Part shown: positions 10,796-35,811 of the stretch, one piece after another | Position numbering within the stretch: position 1 is the first letter of the stretch | Layout of the letters: each line of letters starts with the position of its first letter | Position numbers and translations under genes: made by a program | Assembly (NCBI GenBank): GCA_022842935.1 | Contig: JALHOP010000003.1 | Location: 186,001-250,000 of the forward strand | Source: Myxococcota bacterium | Lineage (GTDB): Bacteria > Myxococcota > XYA12-FULL-58-9 > JALHOP01 | DNA length: 64,000 nt | Direction: 5' to 3' | Notes under the pieces: model-generated | Told to the model about the DNA's origin: nothing | The model's database searches: none | The model's input: the letters and a program-made list of their open reading frames with translations, nothing else

Positions 10796-11557
10796 CTAGC
10801 GCCCGGCGAGACCAGCGGTCATCTTTTTTTGGTGCGTAAGCAACCACCCTGCAAGCAGAAGCAAGGCCCAAAGAGTGAGCCCGAGCCACCCCGAGAGTGC
10901 TGCGACGCACGTCCAGAAGAATAGCCCCCAGGCGAGCGAGTATGTTGTAAACCAGGGCAGAGCCGCCGAGCGCGTGAGCAGGGTGAGCAAGACCTGCGCG
11001 ATGAGCGATGAGATGACCCAACCAACGAAGTTGCTCTCGGGGATCCCGTAATAGGCTCCGGCGCTTTCCCAGGTCCAATAGCGCAATGCAGCCGCGCCGG
11101 GGTCGAGCACGAGATCGAAAGCAACCATCAAGCCGGCCGACAGCAATAGCGTCGGGAGCACACGCGCTGGGCCGAGGATCGCCGCTGCCCACACCCGGCT
11201 GCCAAGGACGATGGGGATCCACGAGAACGGCAGGGTCATCGGAACCAGTCCGAGGAGCTTGGGGCCGAGGTCTGCGCCATAGGAGAAGCGACCATACGGA
11301 ACACCCGTGGCCACGGCGATCGACTCGATGGCGAATGCAAACAACGAAAGCACGGCAAGCGTGATGAGCCATCGCGTGGCTCCCGTCGCTCGCTTGAGTC
11401 CGAGAAAGGCCGGGATCGCCAGGGCGATGTTGAAGACCATCGCAATCACGGTTTGACCCGGCAGGTCGCCATAGTGGACAGCGCCAACCGCACCGAAAGC
11501 AAGACATGGCGCCAAGAAGAACGGCGCGCTGGGCTTATCGTAAAATCGTAGGCTCAC
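10796..11557 (-). CDS. cruF: CruF-family carotenoid hydratase (DUF422 membrane protein)
   Basis: About 253 aa, largely hydrophobic with some seven membrane segments. G-V-P-Y-G-R-F-S-Y with a following P-F-S-W-I-P is typical of the CruF/DUF422 carotenoid 1,2- or 2'',3''-hydratases, which add water to terminal double bonds of acyclic carotenoids (gamma-carotene in bacteria, bisanhydrobacterioruberin in haloarchaea). The GTG at 11557 overlaps the TGA of the desaturase by 4 bp and is preferred; a GTG at 11569 would add four residues. It is third in an operon with a UbiA prenyltransferase and a CrtI-family desaturase, so a C50 substrate is more likely than a C40 one. The family assignment is good; the substrate is inferred from context. 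Confidence 0.8.
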
Positions 11558-13026
11558 AGAGGTCGACACGTATTGTCGGCCGTCGCCGAGGAGCGCGAGC
11601 GAAGCGCCCGCAAGACTTTATCGCTGACGATCATGGCGCCACCGAGAGTACCGGGAATACCTCCACCGGGATGGACGCCCGCGCCAACTTGCCAGAGCCA
11701 GGGCAGTTCGTGGCGATGACGCACGGGGTGGAACGGTCCCGACGCCATGGGTTCGACGAGGTGCCCGTAGATCGCGCCCGAGGGATGACCGAACTCGCCA
11801 TAGTAGTGCGGGTCGACGGTCATCGGCGTATCGATCCAGAGTTCCTTGAACGGATCTTCGCTTGGCGACACCGACGCGAGACCCATGAGTGCTGCGACGC
11901 GCCTGCATTGGCGGTCGGCGAAGGCGCGGAGCTCGGCTGCCGCGAAAGGACCCGAAGGAATTGTCAGCAAAAAAGCCATCACCGCGTGGTGCGGGTCGGG
12001 GTTGACGGGGTGTCCAACCGGATAGTTGTGGCAGAACACCATTGTTGATTCGGGCAAGACCCCGCGAGCCAGCTGCGAGAAGAACGGGGCCGACTGCTGC
12101 GGCATGAACACCTGATGAATCGGTCGTTGCGCGCTGATCGCAGGCTGCACGCTCCCGAACATCGCGAACACGGAGCAACTCAGTGGGAGGTCCGCTGTTG
12201 CGGTCTGTTCTGAGCCCGTCAACTGCGCCGTTAAAGTCGGATCGACCCCGCTCACGACCACGTCGAACTGTTCATCGCCGCACGGCCCACTTACCACCCG
12301 TTCGCGGATGCGCGTGACCCGGTACCCAGTGCGAACTTCACCACCCGCCTCACGGAGAAGGGACGCGAGATGAAGCACGAGATTGTACATTCCGCCGCGC
12401 GGAACGAACACGCCGTCGACCGCGAGCGCTGCGAGGAGAGCTCCGAAAAGAGAGGGGACCTGGCTTGGGTTACCCCCCGCATTGAGTGCCTGGAGCTCGA
12501 TGATGTCGCGCAGCGCCGCGTCACGAATCCGGGCGCGCTTGAGCCACGTGCTCATGCTAAAGCTTCCTCCCAGCGCGCAGAGCATCTTCATCGCAGGGCC
12601 AATCGCCGAGCGGCTCGTTGGGTCGGTCACCAGGAGATCACCCAAGATCGTAGACAGTCCTCTGTAGCGTGATGCGTAGTCGCTCCACGCCTCGTAGCCG
12701 GCATCGTACGGCTCGAGTGGGAGCTCGCGGGTCATGTCGTCCCGGCAATAGTGACCGATACCCTTCAGCTTGATGAGCTCGAGCGGTTCCGCTCTGCGAC
12801 CCGCGAGTGACTCCCAGCGCCTGTTGAAGGTCTCGAGCAGGCGAGGAAACGTCAGCATGGCGGGGCCGGTATCGATGACCACTCCGCGATGAAGGACGCG
12901 TCGACATTTTCCTCCGAGCCAGTCGTTGCGCTCCATCAAGGTGACGCGATGACCCGACGCCGCGAGCAGGGCCGCGCACCCGAGTCCGCCGAGGCCGCCG
13001 CCGATGACCGCTATGCTCTGACTCAC
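11554..13026 (-). CDS. CrtI-family carotenoid desaturase (phytoene desaturase / carotenoid 3,4-desaturase-like)
   Basis: 490 aa from GTG 13026, which overlaps the prenyltransferase TGA by 4 bp and has GGAG six bases upstream; GTG 13038 is an alternative. The N-terminal FAD motif is [12 protein letters not shown], with [10 protein letters not shown] and D-T-G-P-A-M-L next, as in phytoene desaturases. The C-terminal [13 protein letters not shown] motif is the CrtI-family flavin-binding signature. CrtI, CrtD and CruO-type enzymes share this fold and cannot be split by eye. Flanked by UbiA and CruF genes, the likeliest role is the 3,4-desaturase (CrtD) step of bacterioruberin-type synthesis. No phytoene synthase lies in the window. 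Confidence 0.85.
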
Positions 13027-13904
13027 GGCGCGCTCCACTTACCCAAAAAGACCGCCAACGCTAGAGCCACGCCGCCATAGGTGCCGACGACATAGGGAAA
13101 CGCGACCGAATAAACGTAGAGACGGCGTTCGCTTGCTCGCTCCTTGGCGAACGCCATTCCGCTCAAGAGGAGCACCGCGTAGAGCCCATTGAGCGCGGCG
13201 AGCGATACACTCAGCCGCGCGAAGGCGAGACATGAAAGCAACCAGAACGCCCCACAGAAGACGAGAGCGCCACGTTTGTCGAGAACGACGGCGGTCGTTC
13301 TCAAGCCAGCGCGCCGGTCCTGTTCGATGTCCTGGATGGAATCGAAGCAGTGCTTGGCCGTGCTCCAGGCCATGAGTCCCAGCGCCGCCGGCCAGATGAC
13401 GTCGTGGTTCAATGCCAAGGGAACGAAGACGAGGGGAAGTGCGTATGCAGCGTTGCTCGCGCTGTCGAGAAACGGTCGCGCCTTGAGCCGGGGTGGCAAC
13501 GAGTACAACAAAAACACCATGGTGTAGATGGCCAGGGCAACGAGCGCGTCGCGCCTGTAGGTGAGCGCGAAGTAGATGACGAATGGACCATTGAGCGCCG
13601 CAACCCACGCCAAGACACCAGCGATCTCGTGTTTGCCGACCCGGGCGCCTTCCCAACCGCCCTTGCGATCATTGAGCGCATCGGTGTCGAGATCGGTGAT
13701 GTCGTTAACGCCGTAGATGAGGAGGTTGAACGGTAGGGTCAACCACAGGAGGAGCGGCAGAAACGAGGCTCTCCACAGCAGACCGGTCGTCCACAGTCCC
13801 ACCCAGGCTGGTCCGATGGTGTTAATCCAAAGCACCGGCCGCGACAGCGCGAGGACCTTGCGGAGGGGGAGCAGAAGGCGCCGCGTGGGTGATTGCTCAT
13901 TCAT
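13023..13904 (-). CDS. UbiA-superfamily prenyltransferase, probable lycopene elongase
   Basis: 293 aa polytopic membrane protein from ATG 13904, with GAGG ten bases upstream; a TTG at 13913 lies too close to that Shine-Dalgarno. Both Asp-rich prenyl-diphosphate motifs of the UbiA superfamily are visible: N-D-I-T-D-L-D-T-D (first) and D-S-I-Q-D-I-E-Q-D (second). The body matches the lycopene elongase branch (LyeJ of haloarchaea, CrtEb/LbtB of actinobacteria), which adds C5 units to lycopene ends, better than ubiquinone or heme O synthases, judging by its neighbours. It heads a three-gene operon with a desaturase and a CruF-like hydratase. The superfamily is certain; the lycopene substrate is inferred from context. 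Confidence 0.82.
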   Translation of the reverse strand: MNEQSPTRRLLLPLRKVLALSRPVLWINTIGPAWVGLWTTGLLWRASFLPLLLWLTLPFNLLIYGVNDITDLDTDALNDRKGGWEGARVGKHEIAGVLAWVAALNGPFVIYFALTYRRDALVALAIYTMVFLLYSLPPRLKARPFLDSASNAAYALPLVFVPLALNHDVIWPAALGLMAWSTAKHCFDSIQDIEQDRRAGLRTTAVVLDKRGALVFCGAFWLLSCLAFARLSVSLAALNGLYAVLLLSGMAFAKERASERRLYVYSVAFPYVVGTYGGVALALAVFLGKWSAP

Positions 13905-14063
13905 CAACGACAAACCTCACTGCCCCCTCGGGGAGCGCGCGGCGCGGGAGGATTGCCCGGTTCGAGCGATGAGAACAAGACTTGGCCGGGAGCGGCTGCC
14001 TCGAAAACGGGTCGCGGCGAAAAGCGGTTCCGACTGCATGCCAGCCGACACTCGAAAGGCAAA

Positions 14064-14684
14064 CTACGCTCGAATCAACCGGGCGGCGGCAACCCCGACG
14101 AGGCCGCCCACGGCTAGCGCGCCCCCCAGATGACCGATGGCGAAGTGCCAGTGCTCAACGACTGGACAGGCCAGGAACACCGCTGCTCCAGCGACTGCGG
14201 CGGAAGAGCTCGCGAGCAAGAGCCCCTTGAGCAGCGGGCGTAGTGGCTCGGTACCCCGCCGCGCGAACAGGATCGCGACTCCAAACACGCCTCCGAGTGC
14301 AAGCGTCGTGAGCAGACAGGGCACGTCACCGCGCAGGGAGTGTGGCGGGGTTGGGCCCTGCGCGTAAGCGACAGCGACCGCGGCGAGCACCACATAAGGC
14401 ATGGCCACCAAACGTTGCGTGCCGCGCGGACTCGTCCACAGACTTCCAGTCGCGGCGAACAACGTCCGCGCCGCGAAGCTCAGGATGATGAAGGCCACGG
14501 CAGCCAAGAAGAAGGGCTCACGGGGGCCTGGATCGATGCCATGCCGACCCACGAAGAGCGCGGAAACGGCGAGACCAATCGTGGCCGCTATCGCGGTCTT
14601 TCGTCGCAGCTCCGACCGCGTAGGGGAGGGCGTCTGTTTGACTTCGGCGACGAGCTTGGCCTTCCACTCCGACGGCATGCTCAT
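14064..14684 (-). CDS. NrsF-like (DUF1109) membrane anti-sigma factor
   Basis: 206 aa with a short charged N-terminal tail and about six hydrophobic segments. Two cysteines lie in or next to membrane segments (D-V-P-C-L-L and F-L-A-C-P-V-V-E-H-W-H), followed by H-x-x-x-x-H-L-G-G-A-L. NrsF-type proteins hold ECF sigma factors at the membrane and in Caulobacter use a conserved Cys pair to sense metal or redox stress; that layout is matched here. The ATG overlaps the sigma factor TGA by 4 bp, so the pair is translationally coupled. Sequence identity to DUF1109 is judged from architecture and partner rather than a search. Confidence 0.68.
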   Translation of the reverse strand: MSMPSEWKAKLVAEVKQTPSPTRSELRRKTAIAATIGLAVSALFVGRHGIDPGPREPFFLAAVAFIILSFAARTLFAATGSLWTSPRGTQRLVAMPYVVLAAVAVAYAQGPTPPHSLRGDVPCLLTTLALGGVFGVAILFARRGTEPLRPLLKGLLLASSSAAVAGAAVFLACPVVEHWHFAIGHLGGALAVGGLVGVAAARLIRA

Positions 14685-15232
14685 GCGTCACCCTTACCGT
14701 GCCCGATACCCAGGGCCACATAGGCACGATGGGCACGCATCTTCATGGCTGTTGGCGTCGCTCCGACCACCGCGGCGGCTTCGGCAAGCGAGAGACCCTC
14801 GACGCGAACCAGCTCGAACGCGGTGCGATGCTCTTCAGGGAGCTTGGCGAGCTTGGCGCTGAGTTGATCGAGGTCTTCGCGTCCAGCGACGCGCGCCTCG
14901 GGATTGTCCGCCGACCGCAAGAGCTCTTCGTTCGGGAGCGCCGCCTCCGGCTTGCGGCGGCGGGTCCGCAAGGCATCGAGCAACAAGCGCCGCGCGATGG
15001 CATAGGCCCAAGGGATCACCGCCCCGTTGCGCTCGAAGCTCGCGCGGCCACGGTGCATGCGCAGAAACGTCTGCTGCAACAAGTCATCGGCGAGCGCGGC
15101 GTCGTTCGTGGAACGACGCAAGAAGCCCCGCAGTCGTGCCGCGAGTCCCTCGTAGAGCGGCTCGAACGCGGCGTCATCGCCTTGGGCATAGCGCTCCATG
15201 AGCTCGTCTAACTCTGTCGGTTCCGCAGTCAC
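14681..15232 (-). CDS. ECF-subfamily RNA polymerase sigma factor
   Basis: 183 aa from GTG 15232. Region 2 is present (A-L-A-D-D-L-L-Q-Q-T-F-L-R-M-H, then W-A-Y-A-I-A-R-R-L-L-L-D) and so is region 4 (L-P-E-E-H-R-T-A-F-E-L, then L-S-L-A-E-A-A-A-V-V-G, the -35 recognition helix-turn-helix). There is no sigma 1.1 or region 3, as expected for ECF factors. The downstream gene encodes the probable membrane anti-sigma factor, overlapping by 4 bp. Together they should respond to an envelope or oxidative signal. The carotenoid operon lies 160 bp further on the same strand and could be a target, but I identified no promoter match. Confidence 0.92.
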   Translation of the reverse strand: MTAEPTELDELMERYAQGDDAAFEPLYEGLAARLRGFLRRSTNDAALADDLLQQTFLRMHRGRASFERNGAVIPWAYAIARRLLLDALRTRRRKPEAALPNEELLRSADNPEARVAGREDLDQLSAKLAKLPEEHRTAFELVRVEGLSLAEAAAVVGATPTAMKMRAHRAYVALGIGHGKGDA

Positions 15233-15322
15233 TTAGCGGGCACCGGACCACAAAAGGTTAGCAGGCACAACTCGTGTGCTTCTCACCATCGATACGTCGG
15301 GGCAGCCGTCCGGTTTCCGGTC

Positions 15323-16183
15323 GTGTACGAAGTGGTCATGGACTTCGATGGGAGCTTCTCCCGCATCGGCCCCCATGCCACTGACACCCTGCGGGCCAAG
15401 GTCGAAGCCTTAGCCCCCGACGATTGGCTCGAGGACGCCTGGCGGCAACACGTCTATCGTCCGCACCGCGAGTCGAACACGATTCTCCTGATGTTCGACA
15501 AAGACTATCGCCACGAGGCGCCGACCACACACGCCGCCCACGCGCGCTTCGACGCCGAGCTGCAGAGCGTCTATCGACACCTGAACGCGCACTACGGTAC
15601 CGGCTACCCGGTACGGGCATTGTTTGCGCGCCTGCCCCCCGAGGCGCGCGTTCACCCACACTCCGACGCCGGATTTTCGCTCACCAACTCGCACCGGGTC
15701 CACTTGCCGGTCGTCACGCATCCGTCGGCCTGGTTCACGGTGGGCGGCGAAACCAAGGCCGTGCCCTATGGCGAGCTCTGGGAGATCAACAACCAGCGCG
15801 AGCACTCCGTCTACAACCAAGGTGACCGCGATCGCATCCACTTGCTCGTCGATTGGGTAATCCCGGGCGAGCTGCGCTTCTTTCGCCCGGAGCCCGCGTT
15901 TACCGTCCATCTGCGGCTCGCGCCCGGCGCCAAGGTCGAAACCCCGCTTGGTCGGCCCCATCTCGTCGTCGTCACGGCCGACGACGTTGACCCGGTCGAG
16001 CTCGAGCTCACGCGTGAGATCGAGCCCCTCGCACGCTGGTTGCGCATGCAAAGGGGGCCCTTCACGGCGCGTCACCTGCAGGCAGGAGTGCCGTCCCTGT
16101 CCGAGTCCCAGATCAACGATGTCCTCGATGTGCTGGTTCGCGCCGAGGTCGTCTTGCACTCCTTCCGTGCGTTCACGCCGTGA
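15323..16183 (+). CDS. Aspartyl/asparaginyl beta-hydroxylase-like Fe(II)/2-oxoglutarate dioxygenase
   Basis: 286 aa from GTG 15323; an ATG at 15338 would shorten it by five residues. The Asp_Arg_Hydrox fold is seen in A-R-V-H-P-H-S-D-A-G (metal-binding His), H-L-P-V-V-T-H, G-E-L-W-E-I-N-N and N-Q-R-E-H-S-V-Y-N, followed by R-I-H-L-L-V-D-W. These correspond to the 2-His core and the Arg/His that hold 2-oxoglutarate. A C-terminal extension of about 80 residues carries a predicted helix-turn-helix-like end (A-R-H-L-Q-A-G-V-P-S-L-S-E-S-Q-I-N-D-V). The stop overlaps the sulfotransferase start by 4 bp, so the two probably act together on one substrate, which is unknown. Confidence 0.82.
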   Translation: MYEVVMDFDGSFSRIGPHATDTLRAKVEALAPDDWLEDAWRQHVYRPHRESNTILLMFDKDYRHEAPTTHAAHARFDAELQSVYRHLNAHYGTGYPVRALFARLPPEARVHPHSDAGFSLTNSHRVHLPVVTHPSAWFTVGGETKAVPYGELWEINNQREHSVYNQGDRDRIHLLVDWVIPGELRFFRPEPAFTVHLRLAPGAKVETPLGRPHLVVVTADDVDPVELELTREIEPLARWLRMQRGPFTARHLQAGVPSLSESQINDVLDVLVRAEVVLHSFRAFTP

Positions 16184-17115
16184 CTGACGCCGGCCGCTAC
16201 GCCCCCAACGACTTGCGCATGGCACGACGCATCGCGGAGCGCCCCGACTTTTTCGAGCGTCCGCTCGTCATTCTGTCCGCACCGCGCTCGGGCAGCACCT
16301 TGCTCTACGAGTTGTTGACGCGGGCGAGCGGTGTCTGGTCGCTCGGTGGCGAGAGCCACGGGGTCATCGAAGAGCTCGGCGGGCTCGACCCGATGGATGG
16401 CCGCGTCCGCTCGAACAGACTCGACTCGAATGACGCCGACGCCGAGACCGTCGCGACGCTGCGCACCGGATTTCTCCTGGGCGCCCGGGATGCCTCTGGC
16501 GTGCGCTATCTCGACTGCTCACCTGCCGCGCGACCCGCAACCATGCGGTTCGTCGAGAAGACGCCCAAGAACATGTTGCGCGTGCCCTTCATGCGGACGG
16601 TGTTTCCTGGCGCCCGCTTCGTATTGCTATTGCGCGAGCCGCGCGAGGCGCTCTCGAGCATGATCGAAGCGTGGGAGTCGGGAAAGTTCATCACCTATGC
16701 GGCCCTACCGGGGTTTCGCGGACCGTGGTCGATGTTGCTGCCGGAGCGCTACCAAAGCGTCACCAACACGTCGGTGGATGTGTGTGCGGCATTCCAATGG
16801 CGTGAGGCGATGCGTGTAGCTTTCGCGGATCTCCGGACGCTGCCGCCCGACGCGATCGGAGTCGTTACCTATGAAGAGCTCGTGCGGGACCCGGCCAGCG
16901 TGGTGCGCCGTATCGCCGCGCTTGCGGAGCTCGACCTCGAACATGTCGCGCTTCTCTCCGAACGCGAGAAGCTACCGATCTCGACGCACACACTGTCACG
17001 GCCTGCGGCCGACAAGTGGCGGCGCCACGCCCAGCGGATGAAGCCGTTCCTACCCGAGCTCGAAGAGATCTTCCTCGAGGTCAGCGCTTGGTCGCGAGCT
17101 CGAGCTGCTCGGTGA
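16180..17115 (+). CDS. Sulfotransferase-family protein
   Basis: 311 aa from GTG 16180, overlapping the hydroxylase stop (GTGA). The 5'-phosphosulfate-binding loop is L-S-A-P-R-S-G-S-T-L-L-Y-E-L near residue 32. The 3'-phosphate-binding region is F-V-L-L-L-R-E-P-R-E-A-L-S-S-M, near 145-160. This is the layout of PAPS-dependent sulfotransferases (Sulfotransfer_3-like). The C-terminal helix-rich part (R-D-P-A-S-V-V-R-R-I-A-A-L-A) is also typical. The acceptor may be a peptide, sugar or small molecule hydroxyl. Co-translation with a hydroxylase suggests that a newly made hydroxyl could be the acceptor; this is inference. The last 35 bp overlap the convergent ddl gene. Confidence 0.85.
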   Translation: MTDAGRYAPNDLRMARRIAERPDFFERPLVILSAPRSGSTLLYELLTRASGVWSLGGESHGVIEELGGLDPMDGRVRSNRLDSNDADAETVATLRTGFLLGARDASGVRYLDCSPAARPATMRFVEKTPKNMLRVPFMRTVFPGARFVLLLREPREALSSMIEAWESGKFITYAALPGFRGPWSMLLPERYQSVTNTSVDVCAAFQWREAMRVAFADLRTLPPDAIGVVTYEELVRDPASVVRRIAALAELDLEHVALLSEREKLPISTHTLSRPAADKWRRHAQRMKPFLPELEEIFLEVSAWSRARAAR

Positions 17116-34014: not shown

Positions 34015-35811
34015 ATGCGCCGTATGTGCTCGCTCGCTGGCTTTTTGGCGGTCCTGTCGTTCTGTCTCCCCGTCATCGCGGCGCCGGCCTCGGGCATGCG
34101 CGGAATGGTTGCCTCGGGGCACGCCGATGCGACCGCCGCCGGAGTGATGATGCTCCGCCAAGGCGGCAACGCAGTCGATGCGGCAGTGGCAACCGCGTTC
34201 GCCTTGGCGGTCGTTGAGCCCTACTCCTCGGGGATCGGGGGCGGTGGGTTCGCCCTCGTGAAGATGGACAAGGCGCTCACTTTCCTCGACTTCCGCGAGG
34301 TCGCTCCTGCCGCCGCGACGCGTGACATGTACATCAAGAACGGCGTGCCTGAGCCGTTGCTCTCGCGCGACGGCATCACATCGGTTGCGGTCCCGGGCGC
34401 GGTCGCCGGTTATCTCGGCATGCACAAGCGCTACGGCAGACTGACGCGGGCACAGGTGCTCGCGCCGGCCATCAAGCTCGCCGAAGACGGATTCGTCATG
34501 AACCCGGTCTTTCGCCGTGATGTCGAATGGCGCATCGACGAGCTACGCAAGGACCCGGAAGCGACCAAGGTGTTCCTGACCCCCGATGCGCAAGGGGTCG
34601 GTCAGAACCCCGAGCTGGGCGTTACGTGGAAACAGCCCGACCTTGCCTGGACTCTGCGCCAGCTCGTCGAGGGCGGTGCCGACGCCTTCTACAAGGGTTC
34701 GGTCGCCAAGAAGCTCATCGAAGATCAGAAGACCCGCGGCGGCATCATGACAGCCCGCGATCTCGCACGCTATAGCGTACGAGAGCACAAGCCGCTCATG
34801 GGGAGCTTCCGCGGCCACGCGGTCGCCACCGCGCCGCCTCCCTCGGCAGGTGGCGAAGTGCTCTTGACCCTCCTCAACATGCTCGAGACCCAACCAGCAG
34901 ACCGTGCCTACCGGGATCCGTCGGCGCTCCATCTCTACGTGGAGGCCTCCAAGCGTGCCTACGCCGACCGGTATCTCATCGCCGACCCCAAGTTCGTGCG
35001 TGACGTCACGCGCGAGCTGACCACCAAGGAGCGCGCCCGCAAGCTCGTCGCCTCGATCGGCACGCAAGCCAGCTCGGCGTTCGACGTACCTCCGGGCGAG
35101 GCGGCGACGTTGCCAACCGGAGTCGTGCCGAAGGTGCCGCTGGTGGTGAAGCCCGCTACGACCGAAGACATGCCGCTTACCGGCGGCTCCGCGAAGGCCC
35201 CTGATCCGGCCAAGTCACCGCATACGACGCACCTATCGGTGGTGGATGCCGACGGTAACGCGGTCTCACTCACCGCGACGGTGAACTACGCCTTCGGTTC
35301 GTGTGTCGTCGCCAAGGGAACCGGCGTCCTGTGGAACGACGAGATGGACGACTTTTCGGTTGCTCCTGGCGTACCCAACACCTACGGCGTCGTCGGTAGC
35401 GAAGCGAACGCGGTTGCCCCAGGCAAGGTTCCGGTTTCATCGATGACTCCGACCCTGGTGTTCGAGGGAGCAACCACCGACTCACCGGTGCGCTTGGTCG
35501 TCGGCTCGCCTGGCGGTCCGCGCATTCCAACCACCGTAGCGCAGATCATCCTGAACTACTTCGATGCCGGGGCGGACGTGCAACAGGCAGTCGCAATGGG
35601 CCGGGTGCACCACCAGCACCTTCCCGACCTGGTCATGATCGAGCGGCTCGGCATTGACGCGGCCACGCTCAACGAGCTCGAAAAGCGCGGTCACAAGATC
35701 AAGCGCCAGGAGACCTGGAGCAACGCCACCGCGGTTGCTGTCGACCCCAAGAGCAAGATCCGCTCTGGCGCCGCCGATCCGCGCGGGGTCGGCGCCGCGA
35801 TGGCCGAGTAG
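34015..35811 (+). CDS. ggt: Gamma-glutamyltransferase (glutathione hydrolase)
   Basis: 598 aa with an N-terminal signal (M-R-R-M-C-S-L-A-G-F-L-A-V-L-S-F-C through A-A-P-A), so probably periplasmic. N-terminal marks are G-G-N-A-V-D-A-A-V-A-T and Y-S-S-G-I-G-G-G-G-F. The autoprocessing site and catalytic nucleophile are at H-T-T-H-L-S (T404). S-P-G-G-P-R-I-P-T-T is the conserved oxyanion loop. The enzyme removes or transfers the gamma-glutamyl group of glutathione and related peptides. It is 6 bp ahead of a Ser/Thr kinase gene, which suggests co-transcription, although a link in function is not obvious. Confidence 0.95.
   Translation: MRRMCSLAGFLAVLSFCLPVIAAPASGMRGMVASGHADATAAGVMMLRQGGNAVDAAVATAFALAVVEPYSSGIGGGGFALVKMDKALTFLDFREVAPAAATRDMYIKNGVPEPLLSRDGITSVAVPGAVAGYLGMHKRYGRLTRAQVLAPAIKLAEDGFVMNPVFRRDVEWRIDELRKDPEATKVFLTPDAQGVGQNPELGVTWKQPDLAWTLRQLVEGGADAFYKGSVAKKLIEDQKTRGGIMTARDLARYSVREHKPLMGSFRGHAVATAPPPSAGGEVLLTLLNMLETQPADRAYRDPSALHLYVEASKRAYADRYLIADPKFVRDVTRELTTKERARKLVASIGTQASSAFDVPPGEAATLPTGVVPKVPLVVKPATTEDMPLTGGSAKAPDPAKSPHTTHLSVVDADGNAVSLTATVNYAFGSCVVAKGTGVLWNDEMDDFSVAPGVPNTYGVVGSEANAVAPGKVPVSSMTPTLVFEGATTDSPVRLVVGSPGGPRIPTTVAQIILNYFDAGADVQQAVAMGRVHHQHLPDLVMIERLGIDAATLNELEKRGHKIKRQETWSNATAVAVDPKSKIRSGAADPRGVGAAMAE

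Follow-up and report, generated by a model that had tools for sequence, protein, structure and literature searches.

A probable bacterioruberin-type end-group gene trio beside an ECF sigma/anti-sigma pair in a Myxococcota genome

Introduction

The pathway that turns lycopene into the red C50 carotenoid bacterioruberin is known from salt-loving archaea and from some pink actinobacteria. Arthrobacter agilis and A. bussei are bacterioruberin makers that cluster lycopene elongase (Lye), CrtD and CruF genes in that order (PMC9122864), and Haloarcula japonica and other haloarchaea hold the same three activities side by side as crtI/crtD, lyeJ and cruF (PMC11946383). Curtobacterium flaccumfaciens has been reported with bisanhydrobacterioruberin, the unhydrated product (PMC6680902), and is named as a bacterioruberin producer in another paper (PMC11946383). 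UbiA-type lycopene elongases also serve the cyclic C50 pathway (CrtEb/CrtE2/LbtBC) of Corynebacterium, Micrococcus and Dietzia. In Jejuia pallidilutea, an elongase and a desaturase lie apart from the main crt cluster, which holds a lycopene beta-cyclase, and the organism makes zeaxanthin as well as the C45 monocyclic 2'-isopentenylsaproxanthin (PMC4256183). The myxobacterial carotenoid gene surveys that we searched make no mention of elongases, CruF or C50 carotenoids, and a literature text search pairing bacterioruberin with myxobacteria returned no relevant paper.

Here we describe a UbiA-CrtD-CruF gene trio within a 64,000-nucleotide stretch of DNA (the window) from a Myxococcota bacterium (GCA_022842935.1). 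The trio is a further occurrence of an already known gene combination, since Lye, CrtD and CruF have been reported in the same order in A. agilis and A. bussei, in an unexpected lineage. We consider it very probable that it constitutes a bacterioruberin-type end-group module fed by crtE-crtI-crtB, with a neighbouring ECF sigma factor probably driving its expression.

Results

On the minus strand, between window positions 13904 and 10796, UbiA, CrtD-like and CruF-like proteins are encoded in that order by three successive open frames (Table 1). An earlier note on this DNA had named these families, read a GTGA overlap at the first junction and called one at the second probable; Pfam and NCBIfam concur on the families, with CrtD and CruF below the strict equivalog cut-offs, and a four-base GTGA start/stop overlap is present at both UbiA/CrtD (13026-13023) and CrtD/CruF (11557-11554). 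UbiA matches PF01040 at 62 bits and PRK13595/NF010119 at 331.7 bits (cut-off of 248), with both Asp-rich motifs intact (NDITDLDTD at residue 67, of the form NDxxDxxxD, and DIEQD at 192, of the form DxxxD). The CrtD-like protein carries the FAD motif GGGLGG and exceeds the cut-off for Amino_oxidase (PF01593), scoring 134 bits against crtI_fam TIGR02734 (below the cut-off of 238) and falling under the curated NCBIfam CrtD cut-offs. The CruF-like protein, the only PF04240 member of the genome (147 bits, cut-off of 25), is best described among CruF models by TIGR03460, bisanhydrobacterioruberin hydratase, at 126 bits (below the cut-off of 154.7), while the gamma-carotene hydroxylase CruF model gives 71 bits, also below cut-off. 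Exact substrates are not fixed by these scores, as both CruF and CrtD fall under the curated equivalog cut-offs.

Table 1. Coordinates of the trio, the upstream regulatory pair and promoter-like elements (window positions)
Feature	Position	Strand	Details
UbiA-type lycopene elongase (Lye/LyeJ-like, PRK13595 family)	13023..13904	-	293 aa; NF010119, identity, motifs, tree
CrtD-like carotenoid 3,4-desaturase (CrtI-family FAD enzyme)	11554..13026	-	490 aa; GTG start in UbiA stop
CruF-like carotenoid hydratase (PF04240)	10796..11557	-	253 aa; GTG start in CrtD stop
ECF sigma factor	14681..15232	-	GTG start, 4-base overlap with anti-sigma gene; TIGR02937 76.9 bits, over cut-off; PF04542, PF08281
NrsF (DUF1109)-like membrane anti-sigma factor	14064..14684	-	PF06532 33 bits, cut-off 26.8
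ECF-type promoter-like element upstream of trio	14006..14031	-	GGAACC-N16-CGTT; fitted post hoc
Promoter-like element upstream of sigma gene	15293..15318	-	GGAAAC-N16-CGTA; same pattern as trio's

Against the UbiA protein, two further elongase-type models, PRK12875 (158.8 bits) and PRK13105 (129.7 bits), follow PRK13595, and the next NCBIfam model, a non-elongase one, reaches 32 bits. The same three-model pattern is given by a LyeJ of haloarchaea, encoded in a crtB-crtI-prenyltransferase-cruF cluster, and by a CrtEb-type protein of actinobacteria, so that these models mark an elongase group. The window protein is 53-55% identical to the elongases of A. agilis, A. bussei, Rubrobacter and Curtobacterium (54% for the Arthrobacter pair), versus 36-41% to haloarchaeal LyeJ. 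Furthermore, a four-sequence profile scan of genome contigs, which returned matches where a single-sequence scan gave none, recovered proteins of Arthrobacter, Rubrobacter, Kocuria, Cryobacterium, Curtobacterium, Clavibacter, Microbacterium and Nesterenkonia at 45-56% identity and haloarchaeal proteins at 32-41%; no relatives were found in viral contigs. In trees the protein falls within the A. agilis/A. bussei/Rubrobacter/Curtobacterium clade, separate from the CrtEb and haloarchaeal groups, so that the phylogenetic check proposed in the earlier note places it, in agreement with the NCBIfam models, among lycopene elongases rather than among the prenyltransferases of quinone or heme synthesis. 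Among 195 searchable genomes of the phylum, this is the only one with a protein over the PRK13595 cut-off.

The window UbiA branch is long (1.4), and although a quick tree nests it inside the actinobacterial clade, a sister position survives an AU test (p-AU 0.90); for this reason we claim neither a donor nor a direction of transfer. A recent transfer from Actinobacteria was considered and dropped, as the nested and sister positions are both acceptable under that test. Third-position GC of the trio (0.735-0.765) lies slightly below that of its neighbours (0.76-0.82) and is similar to that of the main crt cluster, and we accordingly claim no signal of recent import.

The CrtD-like protein is 34-37% identical to the adjoining CrtD of Arthrobacter, Rubrobacter and Curtobacterium and shares with actinobacterial CrtD a branch with support of 100 that excludes all CrtI as well as the bifunctional CrtI/CrtD of haloarchaea. 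The CruF-like protein, 41-44% identical to its A. agilis and A. bussei counterparts, groups with bacterial rather than haloarchaeal proteins, its placement among the bacterial ones not being settled. CrtD and CruF homologues adjoin the elongase in the Arthrobacter and Rubrobacter loci, and because these full-length homologues adjoin in the same combination, the trio is not a chance association. Its layout differs: CruF lies on the opposite strand in both of those loci, whereas all three window genes are co-directional with overlapping ends, and the window genome adds CrtY and an upstream ECF sigma/anti-sigma pair to what the Arthrobacter clusters hold. The earlier comparison with haloarchaea stands in that the same three activities lie side by side there; however, the trio is most closely related to the actinobacterial Arthrobacter/Rubrobacter clusters, and the haloarchaea differ from the window in gene order and in a bifunctional CrtI/CrtD desaturase from another branch (PMC11946383). 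The Corynebacterium, Micrococcus and Dietzia pathway likewise differs, with elongases of a separate UbiA clade and C50 cyclases that have no counterpart in the window trio.

Loci of Curtobacterium, Clavibacter, Cryobacterium and Microbacterium pair elongase with CrtD and show no CruF close by, a CruF gene possibly lying elsewhere in these genomes. Because Curtobacterium, which lacks a nearby CruF, has been reported with the unhydrated bisanhydrobacterioruberin, gene content appears to track product, supporting the assignments made here, with the limit that C. flaccumfaciens is also named as a bacterioruberin producer (PMC11946383). The Microbacteriaceae loci L081, L084, L074 and L078, with elongase and CrtD but without a nearby CruF, fit the Curtobacterium product. 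Separately, a contig titled as Vibrio cholerae strain 35D (L117) carries an Arthrobacter-like elongase-CrtD-CruF cluster, for which contamination or mislabelling is the most likely source. Elongase clusters with CrtI-type genes also occur in MAGs of Acidobacteriota, Parcubacteria and Pacebacteria (L125, L141, L131 and L127), three of the four including CruF.

The earlier note had asked for a lycopene pathway elsewhere in the genome, and one is encoded on the same contig: a main crt cluster about 44 kb from the trio (L021 7034-14152; G000 C3:143001-163000) contains crtY, crtE, crtI and crtB. As crtE, crtI and crtB are all there, lycopene can be made. The cluster also encodes a glycosyltransferase, a convergent CarH-like B12 regulator and a 192-aa multi-helix membrane protein without a family match, whose predicted fold we set aside (pLDDT of 57.5). 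CrtY is a genuine lycopene beta-cyclase (TIGR01789 319 bits, cut-off of 215), and matches over cut-off in 20 of 195 genomes make it part of the repertoire of the phylum. A. agilis and A. bussei, both documented to make C50 carotenoids, gave no full-length cyclase match. A rhodopsin, which would explain CrtY via retinal, gave no match in a search that matched no control either.

An ECF sigma/anti-sigma pair, encoded on the strand of the trio, lies immediately upstream of it (Table 1). Promoter-like elements upstream of the trio and of the sigma gene share the pattern GGAAMC-N16-CGTW, found at three sites in the window versus 0.39 expected, the third (35407-35432) being inside a gene. The looser GGAAC-N15-18-CGTT shows no enrichment (3 sites versus 2.49 expected), and as the pattern was fitted to two sites after both had been seen, we treat the shared element as a lead. 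An ECF sigma factor with a DUF1109/NrsF-type membrane anti-sigma factor is likewise tied to carotenoid genes in Myxococcus xanthus, as CarQ-CarR, with CarR orthologues reported from Cystobacterineae alone (PMC9304148). Within the large-genome family of the phylum nothing matches the window anti-sigma in sequence, and one other locus supplies its sole match in the 195-genome set; the window pair is thus an analogue and not a member of CarQ-CarR, and orthology with Myxococcus CarR was rejected on the same ground. The frames read at that related sigma/anti-sigma locus (L177) include no carotenoid gene. At 15323-17115, in divergent orientation to the window sigma factor, an aspartyl/asparaginyl hydroxylase-like gene overlaps a sulfotransferase gene.

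Discussion

In the pathway that we propose from gene content, Lye would take a C5 prenyl unit from DMAPP and attach it to C-2 of a psi-end of lycopene, probably leaving a 1-hydroxyl as reported for LyeJ; CrtD would insert the 3,4 double bond and CruF would hydrate the double bond in the added C5 unit, such that processing of both ends would give C50 bacterioruberin. Lycopene would be supplied by the distant crtE-crtI-crtB genes; that the trio is not adjacent to them counts against this reading. The adjacent ECF sigma factor probably drives the trio once the NrsF-like membrane anti-sigma lets go, presumably under photo-oxidative or similar stress, and the pair together with the shared element possibly forms a dedicated stress switch. 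CrtY, in turn, would compete for psi-ends, and a C45 monocyclic hybrid may make up some or even the whole of the product.

Two alternatives would leave lycopene elongation little or no part. PF01040 also includes quinone, heme and chlorophyll prenyltransferases, and the window UbiA could be one of these in a coincidental neighbourhood; we find this barely credible, given the 32 bits of the best non-elongase model versus 332, 159 and 130 for the elongase-type models and its grouping with the Arthrobacter/Rubrobacter elongases. Furthermore, the genome encodes just two other UbiA proteins, identified from their sequences and neighbouring genes as CtaB, which adjoins a COX15-like gene, and MenA, which adjoins a MenB-like one; this leaves the third with no housekeeping role to fill. 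Improbable, though somewhat less so, is a C40 pathway of the myxol/saproxanthin/spirilloxanthin type, in which gamma-carotene or lycopene would be the substrate of CruF and CrtD, and UbiA would be marginal or inactive. Deinococcus and Bacteroidota do use CruF and CrtD in this way (PMC10784355); here, however, CruF fits the bisanhydrobacterioruberin hydratase model better than the gamma-carotene one, and UbiA is intact and has its two metal-binding motifs, its gene overlapping the next as in an operon.

Within the bacterioruberin-type reading there is a real, if tentative, case for a main product that is C45 and monocyclic, in which CrtY would ring one lycopene end and Lye, CrtD and CruF would convert the other, giving a compound of the 2'-isopentenylsaproxanthin type, possibly glycosylated by the main-cluster glycosyltransferase. 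This is a sub-case of our best explanation, and the two are not exclusive. A genuine CrtY within the lycopene cluster argues for it, as does the lack of a full-length cyclase match in A. agilis and A. bussei; the same split layout accompanies the C45 product in J. pallidilutea, likened here by description only (PMC4256183). On the other hand, Ha. japonica makes bacterioruberin despite a crtY homologue (PMC11946383), CrtY enzymes usually cyclise lycopene at either end, each locus may have its own conditions of expression, and no CrtZ-like beta-ring 3-hydroxylase was recognised by NCBIfam among the five PF04116 proteins of the genome. Because CrtY competes for the same lycopene ends, the cells may make acyclic C50 bacterioruberin, or a C45 monocyclic hybrid resembling 2'-isopentenylsaproxanthin, or the two together; we place C50 ahead and keep both, as sequence alone cannot decide. 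More speculatively, and in our view rather unlikely in its full form, a bacterium outside the known C50 groups would here combine a bacterioruberin-type module with CrtY and an ECF switch of its own to make an inducible, possibly glycosylated C45 monocyclic hybrid.

The trio, read as a bacterioruberin-type module, would extend this pathway to Myxococcota, a phylum for which the searched surveys are silent on elongases, CruF and C50 carotenoids, and the clusters in Acidobacteriota and candidate-phyla MAGs suggest that C50-type pathways may extend more widely than the searched literature indicates. It would do so as a single compact operon, with overlapping frames for the three end-group enzymes. 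Its co-occurrence with CrtY raises the testable question of how these cells apportion lycopene to ring closure or to C5 elongation, and the sigma factor next to it adds the question of when they do so.
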